A DNA stretch of 64,000 nucleotides from Candidatus Woesearchaeota archaeon (GTDB taxonomy: Archaea > Nanobdellota > Nanobdellia > Woesearchaeales > JACPIF01). The stretch lies in assembly GCA_016188215.1 (NCBI GenBank), contig JACPIF010000004.1, positions 34,236 through 98,235 on the forward strand, given 5' to 3'. Positions 32,963 through 41,189 of the stretch are shown here, in pieces. Both the position numbers and the translations under genes were made by a program. Under the pieces are notes generated by a model. It was not told the origin of the DNA, searched no databases, and was given only the letters and a program-made list of their open reading frames with translations. Each line of letters begins with the position of its first letter. Position 1 is the stretch's first letter.

Positions 32963-33295
32963 CTATTGCAGTATCTGCGGCAGCTTTATTGTAAATGCCG
33001 AGCGTGGCATAATCTCATCAATACCAACTTCTTTCGCTTTCTTTATTAAGTCAGTCTGCACATGAGAAACGTAAGCTACTATCCTAGCCTTTGAATTCTC
33101 TTTGATAAGCTTGGCAGTTTCCACAAGATTAAATCCTGCATTCAAGTCCCATATTATTAAAGTAGGATTTTCTTTTAGAGCAGGTGCTAATGTTTCTTTG
33201 TCAGGAACAATCTTGATAGGCTTGCCGAGCAGGGCTGCGGTTGTCTCTATCTTAGTCTGGAAGAAGAGGTCGTTGCAGATTACTAGAGTAGCCAT
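32963..33295 (-). CDS. Degenerate CheY-like receiver domain protein
   Basis: A stand-alone 110-residue domain with the alternating pattern of response-regulator receivers: LVICND at strand 1, TLIIWDLN with the possible phospho-acceptor Asp at strand 3, RIVAYVS at strand 4 and MPRSAF at strand 5. The usual acidic pair at strand 1 is a single Asp and the strand-5 Lys is Arg, so phosphotransfer may be lost. No histidine kinase is nearby. Role unknown, possibly protein-protein signalling. Confidence 0.65.
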   Translation of the reverse strand: MATLVICNDLFFQTKIETTAALLGKPIKIVPDKETLAPALKENPTLIIWDLNAGFNLVETAKLIKENSKARIVAYVSHVQTDLIKKAKEVGIDEIMPRSAFTIKLPQILQ

Positions 33296-33326: not shown

Positions 33327-33704
33327 TTATCGCTTCTCAACAATGAAAGCAGTGCCGCCGAAATCCACAAAAGTGATTTCGTCGCCCTCATTTAAGTTGC
33401 CCACCAAGTCTTCATGGTATTCTGCATCCAATGTCTCGTAAGAATACAAATCCATTATTTGCATTTTGTCTTCTGCCTTAGAGATGACCTGGCCGTGCTT
33501 CCGGATAATCTCAAGGTCCTGCACGAAATCATGCGGAGGGGCGGTAAAGCTTTCATTAACGCCAGAGAACAAGCCATGCACAGAAACCTTTACCTTAGTA
33601 TGGGTATGAGTGCCGGTAACGACACTAACTACCTCTTTCACCATGTACGGCTCTCCTTTATGCAGGATGTATGAGCCTTTCTTGAGCTTTTTGACTTCTA
33701 GCAC
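33327..33704 (-). CDS. Translation factor IF5A without hypusine lysine
   Basis: A 125-residue two-domain aIF5A homologue: an SH3-like N-domain (MLEVKKLKKGSYILHKGEPY) and an OB-fold C-domain (KMQIMDLYSYETLDAEYHED). In the family the hypusine-bearing Lys lies in a loop of the form SKPGKHGxAK; here the aligned loop reads VVTGTHTHTKVKV. The modified Lys is replaced by Thr, although the flanking Gly and His remain. If the sequence is right, the factor cannot be hypusinated at the normal position. Upstream lies a 42-codon small ORF on the same strand. Confidence 0.88.
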   Translation of the reverse strand: MLEVKKLKKGSYILHKGEPYMVKEVVSVVTGTHTHTKVKVSVHGLFSGVNESFTAPPHDFVQDLEIIRKHGQVISKAEDKMQIMDLYSYETLDAEYHEDLVGNLNEGDEITFVDFGGTAFIVEKR

Positions 33705-40880: not shown

Positions 40881-41189
40881 CTATTCTATTTCACTTTCTA
40901 ATTTTTTCATCACTTTATCCAGGCAATAGAACAAGTTCCTATCAACCATCTCTGCTGAGAATGAACTTCCATTCACCATAAGCCTGCCATGAATCTCATA
41001 TATCTCGCCTTTCTCGCGCTCATGCAGCGGCTTCATGGTGACATGCAGCTTCTGGAAATCCTCATTCTGGTCAGAAAACTTCTTGGCGAAATTGCCCACA
41101 ATCTTCTTGAGAATCACCATGCTCCCGGGGTCTATATCCCTGAAGCCGGAAAGCTCAATGTTGCCGCCAAGACTTACGCTATCTTCCAT
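40881..41189 (-). CDS. Ribosome-hibernation-factor-like protein (RaiA/HPF-like)
   Basis: A 102-residue protein with the beta-alpha pattern of the RaiA/YfiA/HPF fold: LSGFRDIDPGSMVILKKIVG, LHVTMKPLHEREKGEIYEIH, GRLMVNGSSFSAEMVDRNLF, then DKVMKKLESEI. The arrangement ..YEI.G.L.......A.......D.V...L.. is close to that family, which binds the small subunit decoding region. Similarity was judged by eye only. A TTTATATA box near 41228 suggests a short leader. Three-hairpin copy 6 lies upstream, pointing at this gene. Confidence 0.5.
   Translation of the reverse strand: MEDSVSLGGNIELSGFRDIDPGSMVILKKIVGNFAKKFSDQNEDFQKLHVTMKPLHEREKGEIYEIHGRLMVNGSSFSAEMVDRNLFYCLDKVMKKLESEIE

Follow-up and report, generated by a model that had tools for sequence, protein, structure and literature searches.

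Some archaea of the order Woesearchaeales carry, as judged from sequence, a conserved paralog of IF5A that has a threonine in place of the hypusine lysine and that coexists with an apparently hypusinable aIF5A. The member of this group (hereafter T-type) studied here is encoded on the minus strand at 33327..33704 of the window, i.e., the whole stretch of 64,000 nucleotides of DNA that was analyzed. Its ORF specifies 125 a.a. in two domains: (i) an N-terminal KOW-like (SH3-like) domain; and (ii) a C-terminal OB domain. In alignment, the GTG start codon falls exactly on the ATG codon at which related proteins begin. The β3-β4 tip loop, Gly31-Thr32-His33-Thr34-His35-Thr36-Lys37, lies at 33594..33614 (minus strand), and the Thr32 codon (33609-33611) occupies the position of the canonical hypusine lysine. 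Aligned from Val28 to Lys37, the loop reads VVTGTHTHTK against the canonical SKPGKHGHSK, such that Thr32 corresponds to Lys36 of the canonical IF5A that this genome also encodes; the Lys/Arg three residues ahead of the hypusine lysine is also missing. The preliminary description of this locus had claimed the replacement of the hypusine lysine by threonine, and both the ORF and its GTHTHTK loop were confirmed. Because 45 proteins, encoded in separate assemblies, have this loop in frame, a sequencing error could be ruled out, as could a chance match. Downstream of the paralog by 31 bases, and on the same strand, is an ORF of 110 a.a. (32963-33295, minus strand) that by eye resembles a receiver-type domain; it matched no Pfam family and is not kept beside other paralogs.

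The T-type protein was searched for in 279 genomes of the phylum, with homologs scoring at least 66 bits counted. Seventeen genomes besides that of the window contain such a homolog, and the GTHxH[ST]K loop, which was not used as a filter in this whole-protein search, is present in all 17 of these top matches; it was not seen in the lower-scoring loci that were inspected. Carriers thus number at least 18 of 279, a lower bound because weaker matches were inspected only in part. They fall in seven families, all of them within Woesearchaeales, and this search detected no T-type paralog in any other order of the class. A scan of the GTDB genome set returned 44 T-type proteins; with few exceptions, the records they come from are named Woesearchaeota or Nanoarchaeota. 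Two lie outside the order and reflect either transfer or contamination. The first (L082) is in a single-cell assembly labeled Altiarchaeales, the partial canonical IF5A of which is of another type (SKPGKHGEAK), and the second (L123) is in a MAG labeled Undinarchaeales, a 3.8 Mb assembly that also holds a canonical copy (L126). A second IF5A copy in another genome (G255) proved on inspection to be of the ordinary Lys type.

A tree was computed for 45 T-type proteins together with 61 Lys-type IF5As drawn from many phyla of archaea. A single branch separates the T-type proteins from all of the canonical archaeal IF5As sampled (SH-aLRT 99). Support for this branch was 98 once 14 loop columns and one long branch were removed. 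Choosing relatives by their loop motif would invite circularity, which is countered by the 17 top whole-protein matches and by the loop-free tree. The tree rests on 121-135 columns, its inner order is weak, and it is unrooted, so that the T-type proteins could either derive from an old duplication or have branched off the canonical Woesearchaeal gene and evolved fast.

The loop is under constraint. The tip residue is threonine in 45/45 T-type proteins and lysine in 61/61 canonical proteins, and Gly31, His33, His35, and Lys37 are likewise invariant in the T-type set. His33 and Lys37 are common to all canonical proteins and His35 to half of them. The residue following His33 is serine, methionine, or threonine in the paralogs, while it is always glycine in canonical proteins. 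Among the 18 proteins gathered independently of the motif, mean entropy is 0.31 bits over the seven loop positions vs. 1.61 bits over the remaining positions, and no other stretch of seven residues is as conserved. Pairwise dN/dS between close relatives of the paralog is 0.04-0.16. Taken together, the low dN/dS and the conservation of the loop indicate that the gene is under purifying selection, with the lysine-less loop as its best-kept stretch.

The family assignment depends on whether fold or sequence is considered. An AF2 model of the window paralog, built from 18 relatives, has a pLDDT of 86.6; in it, strands E18-30 and E35-44 are joined by a hairpin turn at residues 31-34. Its best structural matches are solved archaeal IF5As (8put, 1bkb, and 1iz6), with a TM of about 0.78-0.80 to 8put and 1bkb. 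In Foldseek, the comparison with 8put_F (E-value 5.6e-11, TM 0.78) is consistent with the two-domain KOW-like and OB fold. By sequence, on the other hand, the protein scores 91.8 bits against NF003076 (cut-off 138) and 64.9 bits against TIGR00037 (cut-off 75.45), both from NCBIfam. For PF21485 (IF5A-like_N; cut-off 27.1) it reaches 25.6 bits by hmmscan and 27.4 in the genome search. The protein had initially been called a good two-domain IF5A; this holds for the predicted fold, but not for the sequence, which falls under the NCBIfam IF-5A cut-offs.

The genome of the window (1.11 Mb, 13 contigs, 91% complete) was searched for a second IF5A and for deoxyhypusine synthase (DHS), as the preliminary description had suggested, and both were found. 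A canonical aIF5A (L003) with the loop TSKPGKHGHSK is encoded on another contig. The sole DHS-family gene found (L001:1333-2466; G000:C2; E-value 7.5e-75) is divergent. Its product is 77-78% identical to second DHS-like copies in two other genomes (G183 and G204), is 19-34% identical to all other DHS proteins compared, and scores under the NCBIfam DHS cut-offs. It retains the lysine of the SWGK motif, which is the catalytic residue in human DHS, and has GGGVPRNW (within GGGVPRNWAQQ) in place of the eukaryotic-type GGGxxKHH. The Haloferax-type DHS also lacks the spermidine-binding His288, yet the aIF5A of that organism is deoxyhypusinylated (PMC5178350); the divergent motif is therefore compatible with DHS activity in the genome of the window. 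A homospermidine-type activity of the putative enzyme is also possible. As the second IF5A retains the canonical lysine, there is no sign that hypusination has been abandoned in this genome. Of the two readings first offered for the locus, abandonment of the modification by the lineage fails on the canonical SKPGKHGHSK protein and the DHS-family gene of the same genome, and a specialized paralog gains support from the distinct, conserved clade and from purifying selection.

The same pairing is found in most carriers. A Lys-type IF5A is present in the assemblies of 14/18 (the genome of the window and 13 of the 17 others), and DHS-family genes are present in 17/18, G253 being the exception. Counting all genomes checked apart from that of the window, DHS-family genes are present in 22 of 23. 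No Lys-type IF5A was found in the draft assemblies of G090, G177, G253, and G271, and a profile built from closely related canonical proteins did not recover one either. These assemblies are estimated to be 86-95% complete, and for three of the four carriers, both copies are found in relatives of the same genus. Absence of a canonical IF5A from 4/18 carriers exceeds absence of any IF5A match from 6/261 non-carriers (Fisher p = 0.002); because all four assemblies are drafts, this excess is a lead and not a result.

In eukaryotic structures, the IF5A loop reaches the peptidyl-transferase center. The paralog keeps the length of this loop together with its Gly, His, His, and Lys, and a single new residue has become fixed at its tip; the loop therefore most plausibly still works at the peptidyl-transferase center. 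A ribosomal role is further favored because the tip loop of a protein acting off the ribosome would be expected to drift, whereas here it is the best-kept part. From these features and by analogy with EF-P, the preferred explanation, which we would give about an even chance, is that the paralog is a ribosomal factor with an unmodified tip; it is placed ahead of ribosome silencing, an off-ribosome function, and DHS regulation, in that order. Such a factor would bind the E/P region of the ribosome like IF5A, and its GTHxH[ST]K hairpin tip, presumably unmodified, would contact the P-site tRNA or the peptidyl-transferase center. At some of the stalling sequences the paralog would then tune elongation or impose a pause, which would make it the archaeal equivalent of EfpL, the bacterial companion of EF-P. 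EfpL, an EF-P paralog, acts on XP(P)X stalls with an arginine tip that is unmodified (PMC11611912). E. coli EF-P lacking its modification retains activity only with a lysine or arginine tip (PMC6544042). A threonine tip may therefore not rescue polyproline, and the paralog may need its other changes or may act as a brake.

Gene neighborhoods are conserved only in closely related genomes, and no partner gene common across families was found beside the paralog. An RsuA/RluB-type rRNA pseudouridine synthase lies directly downstream in 13 of 44 loci (e.g., L067, L068, L070, and L075), at about 10 nt where measured; it lends weak support to a ribosomal role, as it is confined to one lineage. A conserved neighborhood was rejected as a clue to function, since the RsuA-type gene, DUF655, an EamA transporter, and RNase HII form lineage-specific blocks.

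Next in order, and doubtful, is a ribosome-silencing or dormancy factor that would sit in the IF5A site and, through its non-stimulatory tip, block or protect idle ribosomes. eIF5A has been found on dormant eukaryotic ribosomes, with its loop touching a factor in the peptidyl-transferase center (PMC13345908), and a conserved loop without the stimulatory amine would fit a plug. An S30AE/HPF-like gene is also close to the paralog in five genomes; in the window (40881-41189, minus strand) the distance is about 7 kb. However, 34 of the 36 genomes tested in the order have this family, mostly far from the paralog, so that the adjacency is not specific and carries little weight. The S30AE/HPF-like proteins, such as that of the window and that at G000:C5:4113-4433, are about 100 a.a. 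long and score below, near, or just over the Pfam cut-off. In its AF2 model, the window protein has an HPF/YfiA-like fold (TM about 0.6-0.78), and the proteins of the order may represent an under-annotated archaeal hibernation factor.

A function away from the ribosome is unlikely, and is ranked behind silencing. Here the IF5A fold would have been recruited for assembly, as in fungal HEX-1, or for RNA binding or RNA processing. Reuse of the eIF5A domain has a precedent in HEX-1 (PMC5656841), and the net charge of the window copy is -6, compared to 0 for the canonical copy. The charge is not a feature of the clade, however, as the T-type mean of -0.8 is close to the -0.5 of the canonical proteins of the order. 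The tip loop also argues against such a role, since it is the best conserved part, is unchanged in length, and shares residues with canonical proteins. Less probable again is that Thr32 is the site of an undescribed modification, or that the unmodified GTHxHSK tip replaces hypusine, with some carriers, represented by the four assemblies that lack a Lys-type IF5A, living on the T-type protein alone; if true, an IF5A activity that does not depend on hypusine would be seen for the first time in archaea.

It is improbable that the paralog is a partner or regulator of DHS, i.e., a non-modifiable pseudo-substrate that would bind the enzyme and set the level of hypusinated IF5A. A stable aIF5A-DHS complex is known in archaea (PMC6105217), the best structural match of the paralog, 8put, is the IF5A component of a complex with DHS, and trypanosomatid DHS is activated by a dead DHS paralog (PMC3663545). 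Against this reading, the canonical serine and Lys/Arg before the glycine, and the glycine after the first histidine, are all changed in the paralog, and DHS types vary widely among carriers while the paralog loop is constant. Finally, that the lineage dropped hypusination and uses the T-type protein as its IF5A is very improbable: although canonical IF5A is undetected in the four draft carriers above the non-carrier rate, and the DHS-like gene of the window's genome is divergent, this is refuted for that genome by its Lys-type IF5A, 13 other carriers retain one as well, three of the four exceptions still have DHS, and three have relatives in their own genus that carry both copies.

According to the 2024 EfpL paper (PMC11611912), eukaryotes and archaea have only lysine at the tip. 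The T-type clade breaks this rule consistently: the same residue replaces lysine throughout, within a motif that is itself fixed. A literature search, most subscription papers being outside its reach, found no paper on a lysine-less archaeal IF5A and none joining IF5A with DPANN; the paralog should accordingly be regarded as not found in the literature, as distinct from unpublished. For the question of what an IF5A tip can achieve in the absence of hypusine, the clade offers a natural experiment, set in a group of small-genomed archaea that is poorly understood. It also calls for caution, as the annotation "IF-5A" in these genomes may catch a protein that is not hypusinable at the usual site.

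The paralog may be compared with several known systems. With aIF5A/eIF5A (NF003076, TIGR00037, PF21485) it has in common the two-domain KOW-like and OB fold, the length, the position of the hairpin, the glycine before the tip, and the histidine and lysine after it. It differs in having threonine for the hypusine lysine in all members, in forming a separate clade, in scoring under the NCBIfam cut-offs, and in lacking the canonical serine and Lys/Arg before the glycine. HEX-1 of fungal Woronin bodies is also an IF5A-domain protein, which took on another role as a septal-plug protein (PMC5656841); it self-assembles, and the plug is crystalline. Unlike HEX-1, the paralog has a strictly conserved tip loop, which argues that the function of the loop was kept. 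Natural tip substitutions in the same fold are known from EF-Ps with Asn, Gln, Met, Ala, Ser, or Gly at the tip, and threonine is absent from the tip residues given in the available text of PMC6544042 and PMC11611912. Those EF-Ps are bacterial and have three domains, whereas the T-type protein is a second copy in Archaea. EfpL (YeiP) likewise is a second copy beside the main factor and has a non-canonical tip. It has three domains, an arginine tip, and a loop two residues longer (PMC11611912), while the paralog has two domains, a threonine tip, and the canonical loop length, and the similarity of the EfpL model to the window paralog is negligible (E = 0.02, 15 bits). Together with canonical aIF5A, the T-type protein would provide a concrete archaeal parallel to the EF-P/EfpL pair.
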